Positions 4,829-8,831 of a stretch of DNA of 64,000 nt are shown one piece after another. The translations under genes were made by a program, and so were the position numbers. The stretch is taken from the NCBI RefSeq assembly GCF_028882255.1, contig NZ_JARBUY010000002.1:136342-200341 (forward strand). The letters run 5' to 3'. The notes under the pieces are model-generated. The model was not told the DNA's origin, did not search any database, and worked only from the letters and a program-made list of their open reading frames with translations. Every line of letters begins with the position of its first letter. Position 1 is the first letter of the stretch. Source of the DNA: Maribacter polysaccharolyticus (GTDB lineage Bacteria > Bacteroidota > Bacteroidia > Flavobacteriales > Flavobacteriaceae).

Positions 4829-5695
4829 TTATAAGATATCAATCAATTTATCACTCATTTTATTGAACAGCATAATCCCTAATAGAACAATGACCACCAT
4901 AAAACTAAAACTATAAAGAAGCTGGATCGCATTTACGTTGTCGATGCCTAAAAATGCAAACCGGAAATACTCAAAGAGGGCGGATAATGGGTTGAGGTGC
5001 GCTAACCATTGAAATTTTTGGGGAACCATACTCATGGTGTAAAAAACGGGACAAATAAACATAAGCAAGCGTATAACGAGCTGTATCAACGACAAAAGGT
5101 CCCGGTATTTGGCGGTAAGGACAGAGAATATCAAACCGCCCCCAAATCCGATACCTGCAGTTATGATGATTACCGGAAAAACCAAAAGCCCTTGACCGGC
5201 ATTAAAGTCGACCAGTCCACTGAAATAACAGAAAAGATAAACGGCAACAAGCAATAGTAGCTGGATACCAAATAATATCAACTGCAGCCAGAGGGTCGAA
5301 AGTGCAACTATAATTCTAGGGAAATACACTTTACTGAAAATTTCAACATTTTGGAAAAAGGTATTTGACGTTTGCATGAACGTTTCCGAAAACAGGTTCC
5401 AAAGGGTAATACCGATTAAATTAAACAAAAATGGAGGTACACCTCCCGTAGGAATGCCGATAACTTCATTGAACACAACAACATAGGTAATTACGGTTAA
5501 CAGTGGTCTGATCAATGCCCAAAATGGTCCTAATAGGGTTTGTTGGTATAATCCTAAAAATTCTTTCCTGGTCAATTGCAGCAATAGATCCTTAAAGGAA
5601 TAAAGTTCGGCCAAACTAATGTTCCACCATGATGTCCCGGGTTTGATCTCCCATTCCCAATTAGTAGTACCAAGGCTATTGGTTTTGTCGTTCAT
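4829..5695 (-). CDS. ABC-2 type polysaccharide export permease, Wzm type
   Basis: An inner-membrane protein of 288 residues with six or so hydrophobic segments, of the ABC-2 permease family. The region before the first membrane segment has the usual DLLLQLTRKEFLGLY and LGPFWALIRPLL stretches of Wzm and TagG proteins. It forms the channel for a lipid-linked glycan together with the ATPase encoded directly downstream. Its start codon overlaps the stop of the upstream glycosyltransferase by four bases, so the two are translationally coupled. Confidence 0.92.
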   Translation of the reverse strand: MNDKTNSLGTTNWEWEIKPGTSWWNISLAELYSFKDLLLQLTRKEFLGLYQQTLLGPFWALIRPLLTVITYVVVFNEVIGIPTGGVPPFLFNLIGITLWNLFSETFMQTSNTFFQNVEIFSKVYFPRIIVALSTLWLQLILFGIQLLLLVAVYLFCYFSGLVDFNAGQGLLVFPVIIITAGIGFGGGLIFSVLTAKYRDLLSLIQLVIRLLMFICPVFYTMSMVPQKFQWLAHLNPLSALFEYFRFAFLGIDNVNAIQLLYSFSFMVVIVLLGIMLFNKMSDKLIDIL

Positions 5696-6747
5696 AGTAT
5701 TTTGGATCTACTGTTCTTAATTGATTCAATCTTTTTTCCCTTCCTTAGGATGCTTTCAATTTGCTTGTATCTTAGAATATACATGGCATAAAAGCGTATT
5801 ATCCAATAGAGTGTAGTAAGGTCCTTACTCATGCCCCAAGCTCCCTTAACTTGCCTCAAGGCGGCTTTTCTATGGTTTAAAAGTAGGCTGTTGGCACATT
5901 TAACGGTGTATTGGGCAGTATCTGCCAAGGCAGCTTTTTTTATTTTGGATCGCTTATGTTCAGGTAAATACTGCTGTATGATATCGATTACCTTTCCCAT
6001 GTCCAAAAAATTTTGACCACTAAGAAAACTTTTCTGGGTAATGCCACTTCTGGGATCAAGCCTGTAAGAAGCAAGATGTTTAGGGGAGTAGGCTACCGGA
6101 AATTTGGAGCCTATCCTCGCATACATCTCCCAATCTTCACCGAAATGGACCGCAAAAAAACTGCCCAATGCTTCAAAAGTGGTACGCTTGATTACTATTG
6201 CTGGAGGTTGGAGAAGATTCTTTACCGCTATCTTGTCAAAAAAATCGGGAATGATTCCCGGTTGCTCTAGAATACTATCCTTTTTTTTGGCAACCAAACG
6301 GCTAGCATTATCGATAAAATTGAAATTCGTATAGGCCGCCCCTGCTTTTGGATAATCACGGAACAAAGCCGCTATTTCATCGTAAAAACCGACTTCTATC
6401 CTATCATCACCATGGAGGAGATGAATGTACTTTCCTTTTGAACGATTGATGCAGGTTTCGAAATTCCGTAAACTTCCCAGATTTTCTTTTTGTCGGTAAT
6501 AACCAATTCGTCCTTTACCTATTTTCTTTACCAATTCTTCAACATCACCATCCGAACTACAATCGTCCACAACTTCAATCTGCATCAACTCCTGACCTGC
6601 ATCCTGCTGTAGGACACTTTCCATCGTTTCTTTAAGATAATCCATGCAGTTGTAAACAGGGATCATTACCGACCAAAGTGGATTGTAGTCACCTGAATAG
6701 GGTTTTATAAGTGGTGGATGATCGGGAATACGTTTGAACATATACAA
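5692..6747 (-). CDS. Family 2 glycosyltransferase, 351 aa (first gene of the cluster)
   Basis: Paralogue of the enzyme at 1511-2521 with the same order of motifs: LWSVMIPVYNC from residue 24, DDCSSD at 61-66 and HGDD at 112-115. The C-terminal part is rich in Lys and Arg and probably lies on the membrane. A second ATG two codons downstream (6741) would match the paralogue's N-terminus better, so either start is possible. It is the first gene of the leftward cluster; upstream lie 1.6 kb without a coding gene, so the operon promoter should be in that stretch, though I see no clear TAnnTTTG box there in the right direction. Confidence 0.88.
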   Translation of the reverse strand: MYMFKRIPDHPPLIKPYSGDYNPLWSVMIPVYNCMDYLKETMESVLQQDAGQELMQIEVVDDCSSDGDVEELVKKIGKGRIGYYRQKENLGSLRNFETCINRSKGKYIHLLHGDDRIEVGFYDEIAALFRDYPKAGAAYTNFNFIDNASRLVAKKKDSILEQPGIIPDFFDKIAVKNLLQPPAIVIKRTTFEALGSFFAVHFGEDWEMYARIGSKFPVAYSPKHLASYRLDPRSGITQKSFLSGQNFLDMGKVIDIIQQYLPEHKRSKIKKAALADTAQYTVKCANSLLLNHRKAALRQVKGAWGMSKDLTTLYWIIRFYAMYILRYKQIESILRKGKKIESIKNSRSKIL

Positions 6748-7150: not shown

Positions 7151-7189
7151 CTTCGTAAGTCCCGCCCGAACGTGTTGAAGTTGAAAAAG
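7151..7189. repeat. CGGTGAGTCCCGCCCGAAC-type repeat, copy 1 (partial)
   Basis: This copy keeps AGTCCCGCCCGAAC and TGTTGAAGTTGAAAAAG and lacks the left part of the repeat. No hairpin follows it, unlike copies 4 and 5. Confidence 0.6.
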
Positions 7190-7242: not shown

Positions 7243-7358
7243 ACGGCCTATTTTCATTTTGGTAGTAAATCAAGGAATTTCCACTTCGGCTTTGGGAATC
7301 CATCCATAAAGCATTTCACTTTAGTGAAAGGGGCCTGGATGGTGCGGCTGTGGAAAGT
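7243..7358. repeat. Foldable 116-nt element, copy A
   Basis: Aligns without gaps to copy B at 7803-7918, with 27 differences by my count. It can fold into three stacked helices: TTTCCAC (7278-7284) with GTGGAAA (7350-7356), CCATCCA (7300-7306) with TGGATGG (7336-7342), and a hairpin TTTCAC (7314-7319) with GTGAAA (7324-7329). The middle helix has a different sequence in copy B but still pairs fully, so selection for structure is likely, in RNA or single-stranded DNA. The ends ACGGCCTATTTT and GCGGCTGTGGAAAGT are nearly invariant. Strand of action is unknown because both strands can fold. Confidence 0.65.
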
Positions 7359-7417
7359 TAGGATACTTTGAAACTTTACTGTTGATCGACGGGCCTAGGC
7401 TACGGCTGGCCCCTCTT

Positions 7418-7442
7418 AACCAAGGTACACCGTACCTTGGTT
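7418..7442. repeat. Perfect inverted repeat, 11-bp arms
   Basis: AACCAAGGTAC at 7418-7428 and GTACCTTGGTT at 7432-7442 with a three-base loop. It lies in about 100 bases present in copy A's unit but absent from copy B's unit, so it may be an insertion. No T-run follows on either strand, so it is not a standard terminator. Confidence 0.55.
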
Positions 7443-7521
7443 GTTCGGTCCTGGTTCTTTTTATTCATCGGCTTATCCATTGTTTTTTAAACGTATTCAT
7501 GAATGCTCTGCATTTGGGGCA

Positions 7522-7559
7522 ATGCAAAAAAGAACAGGATTAAAAAAGGGAGATGGGGT
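7522..7559. repeat. 38-bp direct repeat, first copy
   Basis: Identical over all 38 bases to 7976-8013. It begins ATGCAAAAAAGAACAGG and ends GGGAGATGGGGT. Its AAAAAGAAC can pair with GTTCTTTTT at 7454-7462, which lies 64 bases upstream here. Confidence 0.8.
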
Positions 7560-7589
7560 GTTCTAAGGGTCTATGGAAATCACTGGGAT

Positions 7590-7642
7590 GGGAATTGCTT
7601 CGCTTCCTTTAGTGGGTTCCACCCAAACATATTGAGAAGAAA
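7590..7642. repeat. CGGTGAGTCCCGCCCGAAC-type repeat, copy 2 (degenerate)
   Basis: Starts GGGAATTGCTTCGCTT and keeps the spacing of copies 4 and 5, but the core is changed to AGTGGGTTCCACCCAAAC. No hairpin follows. Confidence 0.45.
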
Positions 7643-7802
7643 AGGCCTGACCTTAGTGCATTGTTTTTTTAACTATAGATCCTGTTTAGGAAATCATTCA
7701 TCAATAGAATGTTTATGAAAATGTGTTTCTAAGCCACTGGACCTAATGTTTCCAGTGTACGTAGAGCTTTTATGGCTTATGAATGCTGTTGGGAACAGGG
7801 AA

Positions 7803-7918
7803 ACGGCCTATTTTTATTTTCGTAGTAAATCAAGGAGTTTTCACATGGGGCAAAGGTAGGCGCCCAAAGAGCATTTCACCCAAGTGAAAGCGGTCTGGGC
7901 GCTGCGGCTGTGGAAAGT
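7803..7918. repeat. Foldable 116-nt element, copy B
   Basis: Exactly 560 bases to the right of copy A and of the same length. Pairings are TTTTCAC (7838-7844) with GTGGAAA (7910-7916, one G-T wobble), GCGCCCA (7860-7866) with TGGGCGC (7896-7902), and TTTCAC (7874-7879) with GTGAAA (7884-7889). Against copy A, three base pairs of the middle helix are changed on both sides at once (C-G to G-C, A-T to G-C, T-A to C-G). The loop of the small hairpin changes freely (TTTA to CCAA). Confidence 0.65.
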
Positions 7919-7975
7919 CCGTGGATTTCAAGACAAGAAAAATCAGCCTAGCGTTTTTTGGTTCTTTTTAGGGCG

Positions 7976-8013
7976 ATGCAAAAAAGAACAGGATTAAAAA
8001 AGGGAGATGGGGT
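7976..8013. repeat. 38-bp direct repeat, second copy
   Basis: Identical to 7522-7559. Here the partner GTTCTTTTT is at 7961-7969, only about ten bases away, so GTTCTTTTT and AAAAAGAAC form a compact hairpin. Confidence 0.8.
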
Positions 8014-8110: not shown

Positions 8111-8190
8111 GGGAATTACCTCACTTTGTTCGGTGAGTCCCGCCCGAACCTATTGAAAGTGAAAAAGCCGGCATCTAATGCCGCTTTTTT
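8111..8190. repeat. CGGTGAGTCCCGCCCGAAC-type repeat, copy 4, with hairpin
   Basis: Bases 8111-8167 match 8241-8297 at 51 of 57 positions without gaps. The copy runs into the hairpin 8162-8190: AAAAAG, one unpaired C, CGGCAT, loop CTA, ATGCCG, CTTTTT. The arms with A and T runs on either side make a two-way terminator-like structure. On the minus strand the repeat reads FNRFGRDSPNKVR then TAA. Confidence 0.6.
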
Positions 8191-8240
8191 GTCTTTACTT
8201 CGTTTAAGATGGTGAGAAAATAAAACGAATTTCCAATGGC

Positions 8241-8319
8241 GGGAATTACCTCGCTTTGCTCGGTGAGTCCCGCCCGAACATGTTGAAGTTGAAAAAGTCC
8301 TCATTCCATGAGGCTTTTT
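8241..8319. repeat. CGGTGAGTCCCGCCCGAAC-type repeat, copy 5, with hairpin
   Basis: 130 bases to the right of copy 4. The hairpin 8292-8319 has the same build as that of copy 4 (AAAAAG, one unpaired base, six-base stem, three-base loop, CTTTTT), but the stem is CCTCAT/ATGAGG instead of CGGCAT/ATGCCG, with two base pairs changed on both sides. On the minus strand it reads FNMFGRDSPSKAR then TAA. Confidence 0.6.
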
Positions 8320-8337
8320 TGTTTCGTCCACCTTCAC

Positions 8338-8548: not shown

Positions 8549-8580
8549 TTGGTGGGAAAACGGAATTTGAATACCGACTT
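8549..8580 (-). repeat. Degenerate third copy of the tRNA-Gly 3' end
   Basis: The stretch GGGAAAACGGAATTTGAATACCGAC resembles the T-arm and acceptor end of tRNA-Gly and is closer to the relic at 8607-8640. It has lost both the acceptor sequence and the CCCAGAG flank. A hairpin CGACTT/AAGTCG at 8575-8589 follows, as a hairpin follows the other relic. Confidence 0.45.
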
Positions 8581-8606
8581 CGAAAGTCGACATGATTCCA
8601 AATCCA

Positions 8607-8640
8607 TTTATAAAACCCAGAGCGAAAAACGGGATTCGAA
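8607..8640 (-). repeat. 34-bp direct repeat of the tRNA-Gly 3' end (relic att-like site)
   Basis: Identical over 34 bases to 8745-8778, which is the 3' half of the T-arm, the acceptor 3' strand and 14 bases of flank of tRNA-Gly. The rest of the tRNA is missing here. A duplicated tRNA 3' end is the usual mark left by an element that integrates by a tyrosine recombinase. Confidence 0.7.
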
Positions 8641-8744: not shown

Positions 8745-8778
8745 TTTATAAAACCCAGAGCGAAAAACGGGATTCGAA
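8745..8778 (-). repeat. 34-bp direct repeat at the 3' end of intact tRNA-Gly
   Basis: Partner of 8607-8640. It overlaps the tRNA gene from the discriminator base into the T-loop, so an element inserted here would keep the tRNA intact. Confidence 0.7.
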
Positions 8779-8831
8779 CCCGCGACCTCCACCTTGGCAA
8801 GGTGATGCTCTACCAACTGAGCTATTTTCGC
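8759..8831 (-). tRNA. tRNA-Gly (anticodon GCC)
   Basis: 73 bases, read leftward from GCGAAAA to TTTTCGC plus discriminator T. D-arm AGCTCAGTTGGTAGAGC, anticodon loop TTGCCAA (anticodon GCC), T-arm GCGGGTTCGAATCCCGT. All four arms pair. CCA is not encoded. Confidence 0.97.

Follow-up and report, generated by a model that had tools for sequence, protein, structure and literature searches.

We have found that copies A and B, two related segments of Maribacter polysaccharolyticus DNA, appear to represent the same half (D1) of a non-coding element that is dispersed among flavobacteria and that they have diverged from one another. Our best explanation, which as a whole we put forward tentatively, is that this element is mobile but non-autonomous, that each of its two ends is structured and faces outward, and that the computed structure probably acts as RNA. 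The repeat, its covariation, the pseudoknot of a second domain (domain I), and the MITE ends were demonstrated computationally; a conserved single-strand fold is seen at both ends, which seem to point away from each other. Both copies lie in the 64,000-nucleotide stretch analyzed here, which is referred to as the window.

Two copies of D1 in the window

An earlier note on this DNA had reported an ungapped match between A (7243-7358) and B (7803-7918) at 89 of 116 positions; on recounting, the two were identical at 90 of the 116. The next-best 116-nt match to A within the window was 51/116 on the plus strand and 52/116 on the minus strand, and the window-wide means were 29.7 and 29.2, respectively (standard deviation, 4.8). 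The pairings described in that note were recovered as well: the middle helix is changed on both sides between the copies (CCATCCA/TGGATGG in A and GCGCCCA/TGGGCGC in B), the outer helix retains its pairing through a G-T wobble (TTTCCAC/GTGGAAA in A and TTTTCAC/GTGGAAA in B), and the small hairpin keeps its stem in both copies while its loop differs. The D1 repeat is longer than was described there: B continues through an anchor, a T-run, and a terminal hairpin, and A carries the arms of the same hairpin, with inserts before and between them (Table 1). Single-sequence folding energy was unremarkable, with z scores of -0.59 and -1.43 on the plus strand and -1.82 and -1.95 on the minus strand.

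The copies are intergenic, with a glycosyltransferase gene on one side and two tRNA genes followed by mutS on the other; the gene upstream on the D1 strand (5692-6747, minus strand) runs in the opposite direction. A peptide, MQKRTGLKKGDGV, can be read after each copy and was rejected: its start is the hairpin arm, and only about 25 to 27 nt are retained in most relatives.

Two other features of the neighborhood were noted. A second repeat family, of GGGAATTACCTCGCTTTGCTCGGTGAGTCCCGCCCGAAC-type hairpins, is found at 7155-7189, 8111-8192, and 8241-8322, and such hairpins adjoin D1 copies in the window and also in genomes G009 and G010. The tRNA-Gly gene (8758-8831) has a 34-nt exact duplicate of its 3' end at 8607-8640 and a degenerate 3'-end fragment near 8553-8590 (fragment regions, 8553-8640 and 8745-8831); these fragments look like attachment-site scars.

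Table 1. Features of copies A and B, in window coordinates
Feature	Position	Strand	Evidence
Copy A of D1, 114 model positions	7243..7356	+	R1 score, 114.2 bits (copy was in the model); 90/116 identical to B
Copy B of D1, 114 model positions	7803..7916	+	R1 score, 123.1 bits (copy was in the model)
Copy A, P2 (7300-7306 with 7336-7342) enclosing P3 (7311-7319 with 7324-7331)	7300..7342	+	Pairing, covariation
Copy B, P2 (7860-7866 with 7896-7902) enclosing P3 (7871-7879 with 7884-7891)	7860..7902	+	Pairing, covariation
Copy A, outer helix P1 (7278-7284 with 7350-7356)	7278..7356	+	Comparison of A and B; in other copies, P1 covaries (A-U and G-C)
Copy B, outer helix P1 (7838-7844 with 7910-7916)	7838..7916	+	Comparison of A and B
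Linker of copy A in its long form, with two additional hairpins (GGCC.. and CCAAGGTA..TACCTTGG)	7357..7453	+	Related inserts also seen in copies from Maribacter and Arenibacter
Copy A, terminal hairpin arms (7454-7462 and 7525-7535) with a 62-nt insert between them	7454..7535	+	Sequence; insert type common to relatives
Copy B, anchor (7945-7953) and T-rich linker (7954-7960)	7945..7960	+	Sequence
Copy B, terminal hairpin GTTCTTTTTAG / CAAAAAAGAAC, loop GGCGATG	7961..7989	+	Recurs on plasmids (7950-7989)

Distribution of D1

By BLAST, A and B stood alone at strong E values in the window's own genome. Among 59 other genomes, 4 of the 11 from the same genus carried long, strong D1 matches, and the best match in the other 48 had an E value of 3e-4 over about 32 nt; at E values up to 1, some match was seen in 52 of the 60 genomes searched, which is what chance would give. 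When the species collection, which may omit the window's own record, was scanned with a pattern, 74 stretches were returned, every one with a title naming Maribacter or Arenibacter. Model R1, built from 37 Maribacter D1 copies (37 of the 39 distinct copies were aligned), gave 59 matches when run on 50 of these 74 loci and had matches in at least 9 of 299 genomes of the family and at least 7 of 236 genera. Because only 11 to 17 candidates were scored per genome, copy numbers and absences in the genome scans, both with R1 and with the domain I model R2, are bounds. Within Maribacter and Arenibacter, D1 is present as a dispersed repeat, and further genera have diverged forms of it; the additional copies that the earlier note had asked for beyond the window do exist, and they mostly keep the pairings. 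A search of phage records gave no match, and viral contigs gave 0. At two Maribacter loci (L038 and L048), many D1 half copies (the first 66 nt or so) are fused to a repeat, GTCATTTCGAC..GAAATCCC, beside a gene that we take to encode an M61-type peptidase-like protein.

Covariation in D1

The conservation of structure that had been proposed from A and B is borne out by copies outside the model, in which the D1 helices covary and mostly keep their pairing. Cells with both sides changed numbered 35 in the 37 Maribacter rows (8.7 +- 4.4 in shuffled versions), 22 in the Arenibacter copies outside the model (8.8 +- 2.0), and 63 in 23 distinct rows that come from seven further genomes and were fitted to the model (23.1 +- 4.0); these counts were reached by 0 of 500 shuffles, and slid versions were far lower. 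The number of pairs with both-side change was not above that in the shuffles for Maribacter (reached by 53 of 500) or Arenibacter (62 of 500), nor was the number of pair types in the Maribacter and seven-genome sets. The Arenibacter set took in 46 of the 59 R1 matches and left out 6 from Maribacter, 4 that were cut off, and 3 that were weak; alignments A6 and A8 were fitted to the models. Compensatory change of the kind expected of a functional structured RNA is thus present beyond chance in D1, and likewise in domain I (see below), with relatedness between copies not removed.

In Maribacter, 98.8% of P2 cells are paired, and the first P2 pair is C-G in 24, G-C in 11, and U-A in 2 of the 37 rows. 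The 44 distinct Arenibacter rows, which were aligned by sequence and were not in the model, are paired in 97.1% of P2 cells and 95.5% of P1 cells, with a first P2 pair that is C-G in 20, G-C in 16, and unpaired in 8. In the seven further genomes, both sides change at 17 of 29 pairs; P3 goes from TTTCAC/GTGAAA to TTTTGC/GCAAAA, and P1 becomes GTTTGC/GCAAAC. P1 is partly lost in 14 long-form copies of the M. aquimaris/polysiphoniae type, and its last pair is unpaired in 16 of 37 rows.

On the plus strand, G-T pairs outnumber A-C in P1 and P2 by 69 to 16 and by 15 to 3 in two counts. The first small hairpin is not conserved and has an A-C excess (24 and 61 cells), and it was dropped as a conserved helix; totals over all D1 helices are reversed (G-T 33 versus A-C 38, and 41 versus 65) because this doubtful hairpin runs the opposite way. 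From these comparisons, we take P1 to P3 as real. In one MITE (L078, in G005), D1 has lost its P2-P3 hairpin almost exactly, which points to a deletion across the folded strand.

Domain I, a second structured domain

In Arenibacter and other genera, a second structured domain of about 134 nt, domain I, is found upstream of many D1 copies, and a hairpin lies outside this domain. It does not occur in the window and is present once in the window's genome, adjoining a MITE-like end. R2 had matches in at least 63 of the 299 family genomes and at least 53 of the 236 genera (11 to 17 candidates scored per genome); of 196 genomes sampled from the order, at least 8 had matches, three of which belong to other families. 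When 30 sequence-aligned domain I sequences were compared (30 of 44 stretches were taken in), both sides changed at 22 of 33 pairs, in 91 cells versus 22.9 +- 3.6; among 39 wider matches from 18 genomes, the change extended to 29 of the 33 pairs and 284 cells versus 73.9 +- 6.8. In the wide set, there were 4 G-T and 64 A-C wobbles (23 of the 64 in one doubtful pair), and domain I therefore appears to fold on the strand opposite D1, a conclusion that is supported less firmly than the fold itself; the smaller alignment showed no strand bias (21 to 25).

R1 gave a single strong match in 18 domain I regions; therefore, domain I often stands without a recognizable D1. By eye, strongly diverged D1-like parts follow some domain I copies. 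No row of 41 lay inside an open reading frame (ORF) of 90 codons or more (one site, L248 = L263, was counted twice, and one D1 was included). The upstream gene on the folded strand is codirectional with domain I in 31 of 43 cases (P = 0.0027; L248 and that D1 omitted), and the downstream gene is codirectional in 24 of 43. This orientation bias is a modest hint of an RNA role, given that copies sharing a genome are only partly independent and that the window copies do not follow it.

Several variant arrangements were encountered. Domain I occurs in tandem runs with a spacing of about 361 to 392 nt at L245 (G086) and L246 (G305). A third module, AACCGAAGGTTTTTAAGAAATAGC..GGAAGTGCGTT, has a 3' layout like that of domain I and D1, CTTCTTGATTTTTTGGTTCGTTTTGCATCAAGGCAAAATGAAC, at L185 to L188 (G244), L250 (G283), and L252 (G070), and its loop is, by eye, complementary to its anchor. 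At three loci of G286 (L277, L278, and L279), a REP-like sequence, CCTGCCTG..CGGCAGGCAGG, sits exactly in the apical loop of domain I (TCCAA^GG), and other domain I copies have REP-like inserts between the hairpin and the domain; small repeats seem to insert into hairpin loops.

A terminal pseudoknot and a possible triple helix

D1 and domain I, each on its own strand, share one layout: a multihelix domain, a short anchor, a T-rich or pyrimidine linker, and a terminal hairpin. The anchors and loops of domain I vary in concert (AGTGTC/GGACAAGC, GTGCCC/GGGCAAGC, GTGTAC/GTACAAGC, GTGCAC/GTGCAAGC, GGCTCC/GGAGAAGC, AGCGCC/GGGCGAGC, GCATCC/GGATGAGC, and CTTGAA/TTCAAG). From 40 domain I copies, two without the hairpin and three more with inserts or a wrong stem were dropped before the anchor-loop test. 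At least 4 contiguous pairs were found in 23 of 30 distinct rows, against a mean of 5.7 and a maximum of 13 when loops were shuffled 10,000 times; mean complementarity was 3.97 versus 2.62 in shuffled loops, for which the largest mean in 10,000 shuffles was 3.17. By this computation, the domain I loop is predicted to pair with the anchor as an H-type pseudoknot. The CCTTGAC/GTCAAG variant of D1 (G110 and G320) has a clear loop-anchor match; in the variant found in the window (TAGCG with GGGCGATGC), this pairing is weak.

The domain I linker repeats the pyrimidine arm of the hairpin. Linker and arm both had C in 15 rows and both lacked it in 8, and 1 row was discordant (L185 of G244, a misparsed hairpin that was retained; one row was skipped); the agreement has a P value of 0.0002 at the genus level with relatedness not removed. 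A linker that copies the pyrimidine arm suggests a U-A-U/C-G-C triple helix or a strand-exchange switch.

Mobility

The earlier note had considered a REP-type element moved by a transposase acting on single strands. Mobility held up, and the REP assignment did not: where its ends can be read, D1 moves as part of a MITE that has inverted repeats at its termini and is associated with duplications of 8 bp. D1 copies in G005 and G007 lie within units ending in GGATCAAG..TGGG and CCCAACTTTTGGGATTGAYCC. Nineteen distinct units with both ends were collected (one printed at both L062 and L064 was counted once), ranging from 275 to 1,052 bp, with most at 355 to 517 bp; the 8-bp duplication is exact in 10 (for example, AACAAAAT, CAAACCAT, and ACAAACCC), matches at 7 of 8 positions in 4, and is mismatched in 5. 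The D1 hairpin is absent from 4 of the 19 units, and many copies are truncated, nested, or without the internal hairpin. Terminal inverted repeats, target duplication, and a lack of coding capacity, which define a MITE, are combined in the Maribacter units and not in the window copies. A 3' end like the MITE end follows many Arenibacter copies. No MITE end was found at the window copies or beside the copies of other genera that were read; therefore, the core looks older than the MITE. A look for an autonomous partner sharing these ends covered nine loci (a 3' end without D1, or long units), which by eye contained no obvious transposase ORF. At L062 and L064 (contig 22 of G005), MITE units stand head to tail with a 474-base period and five bases between ends.

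A single-strand (Y1) transposase found no support as the mover: 12 D1-bearing genomes were searched, 9 of them have a Y1 gene, and none of their 15 Y1 loci holds D1 within about 1.5 kb. Y1 genes were present in 29 of 63 genomes with domain I and 88 of 236 without it (P = 0.25). On these two results, a REP moved by a Y1 transposase was rejected; nor is D1 a 20- to 40-bp palindrome linked to a Y1 gene. One finding complicates this picture: about 0.1 kb downstream of the sole Y1 gene in G244 lies a 51-nt module of the repeat of that genome. Reverse transcriptase was rejected as a required partner, since, of 16 genomes selected because they carry domain I, just 6 have it. Neither gene is required.

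Known families and occurrences outside flavobacteria

The earlier note recognized no family, and Rfam likewise gave no match to A or B at the gathering threshold; between 6750 and 8400, with E values up to 10, weak matches lay elsewhere, all below the cutoff and none over the copies. A known Rfam family was rejected for the repeat from searches of the window and 11 relative loci at gathering; the low-stringency lists held weak matches and no family match over the domains. RF01731 was absent from the window and these loci at gathering and from listings to E values of 10 and 1; it gave 0 matches in 247 Bacteroidota genomes, in a scan in which positive controls were equally silent. The HEARO and IS605-orfB (omega-type) RNA models had no match in the window or the relative loci scanned, and the open-access literature had no paper on the D1 repeat among the matches listed.

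Parts of the element recur more widely. Window positions 7950-7989 are found at 92.7% in 18 Bacteroides-group plasmid records, predicted to be conjugative, and in the two that were opened, the D1 3' cap is downstream of a gene for an ArdC-like single-stranded-DNA-binding protein. The domain I hairpin recurs in Pseudoalteromonas and Ilyobacter records. At two loci of one Pseudoalteromonas record, a domain-I-type 3' cap (anchor, linker, and terminal hairpin) directly follows the Rfam TwoAYGGAY RNA on the same strand, and this cap is not part of the Rfam model. R2 had no match in the Pseudoalteromonas or Ilyobacter loci, and the Ilyobacter locus that was opened had no Rfam match.

Discussion

We postulate that the fuller element would consist of domain I folding on one strand and D1 folding on the other, in opposite orientation. 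In domain I and some D1 variants, the hairpin loop would pair back to the anchor as an H-type pseudoknot, and the linker, as a copy of the hairpin's pyrimidine arm, could form a triple helix within the stem groove. The core, in Maribacter and Arenibacter, would be carried by a MITE that a transposase generating 8-bp duplications has moved. The folded strand may be present as RNA, often from read-through of the upstream gene; the knotted 3' end may block 3'-to-5' exonucleases, and the element may stabilize or trim transcripts at its landing site. We favor RNA over DNA as the folded strand on three grounds: G-U pairs are tolerated, the orientation of copies is biased, and there is a link to an RNA family.

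It is also conceivable, and in our judgment unlikely, that the folding of the ends takes place in single-stranded DNA, at the time of replication, conjugation, or repair, and that a DNA enzyme recognizes them; the structure would then serve mobility rather than a transcript. In favor of this are the mobility and hairpin ends of the element, the tolerance of G-T pairs in DNA too, the position of the D1 cap beside an ArdC-like gene in the two opened Bacteroides plasmids of the 18 matched records, and the repeat module close to the one Y1 gene of G244; however, none of the 15 Y1 loci holds D1, Y1 is not associated with domain I, and five genomes with 5 to 11 scored copies (G212, G286, G305, G320, and G130) have no Y1 match. 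In addition, the duplications at the known ends are 8 bp, and the two ends fold on opposite strands; to our knowledge, Y1 enzymes make no 8-bp duplications, and we know of no Y1 element with ends folding on opposite strands.

A transcription terminator or attenuator that has spread as a repeat is more improbable still. T-runs do adjoin a stable hairpin, no row of the 41 is within an ORF of at least 90 codons, and domain I is sense to the upstream gene in 31 of 43 cases, yet the stem is A/T rich, the T-run comes before rather than after the hairpin, and both the large conserved domain and the loop-anchor pairing would be superfluous for a terminator. Palindrome correction treats both DNA strands alike and leaves the one-strand G-T excess unexplained, as it does the long-range loop-anchor matching and the single architecture across 53 genera; we accordingly give the least weight to decaying MITE debris with no present function, in which paired changes would arise by template switching or gene conversion in imperfect palindromes, even though many copies are truncated, nested, or without the internal hairpin and copies within a genome are nearly identical and not independent.

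A wider reading, possible but on balance doubtful, is that a portable 3'-terminal RNA module (anchor, U-rich linker, and triple-helical pseudoknot) caps unrelated structured RNAs across phyla and that two such modules face outwards in the gene-less flavobacterial element. The capped RNAs would be flavobacterial D1, domain I, Pseudoalteromonas TwoAYGGAY, and perhaps the ardC-adjacent stretch of Bacteroides plasmids.

Triple helices in eukaryotic RNAs are exemplified by MALAT1 and the telomerase pseudoknot. The ENE triple helix of a plant retrotransposon, in the part of the report cited here (PMC12501189), is reminiscent of the flavobacterial ends in that a U-rich strand is predicted in the groove of an A/U stem near the 3' end of a mobile or non-coding RNA; unlike these eukaryotic examples, the flavobacterial triple helix is a prediction. 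The intrastrand triplex motif of Holder et al. 2015 (PMC4666352), as presented in the cited portion of that paper, likewise involves one strand folded back twice into a triplex, with many copies per genome; it is G/C rich, is 34 to 36 nt long, and is known from Enterobacteria and Cyanobacteria, and the words flavobacteri and bacteroidetes are absent from that portion of the text.

The TwoAYGGAY RNA (RF01731), listed in Weinberg et al. 2010 (PMC2864571) and also treated in PMC4333381, is, as far as the cited parts of these papers go, a similar structured RNA in which an outer stem encloses hairpins, and the function of both families is unassigned. The two Pseudoalteromonas loci scoring above its cutoff continue with an anchor, a pyrimidine linker, and a hairpin, as D1 and domain I do; however, its two AYGGAY-loop hairpins are absent from D1 and domain I, the flavobacterial loci scanned contained no RF01731, and R2 was silent on the Pseudoalteromonas loci. 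Likewise, the bcr1-bcr18 elements of the Bacillus cereus group are dispersed intergenic repeats, some MITE-like and some with conserved structure, and about half of the copies are transcribed, often in untranslated regions; they differ in phylum and sequence, and two inverted pseudoknot-capped ends are not described for them in the cited sections (PMC3446304). REP/REPIN elements with their RAYTs also have many intergenic palindromic copies, and REPs, in the cited portions of PMC3733652 and PMC3116915, are 20 to 40 bp long, carry a tag (GTAG, for example), and have a Y1 gene linked to them, unlike D1, which has about 114 nt (190 with the cap) and no Y1 link.

If our explanation is true, a widespread class of intergenic repeats in a major marine bacterial family would be not meaningless palindromes but structured RNAs that have been conserved. 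Orphan RNA families such as TwoAYGGAY would then have a common, testable feature in the shared terminal pseudoknot, and the flavobacterial ends would be bacterial counterparts to the triple-helix ends of eukaryotic non-coding and transposon RNAs.
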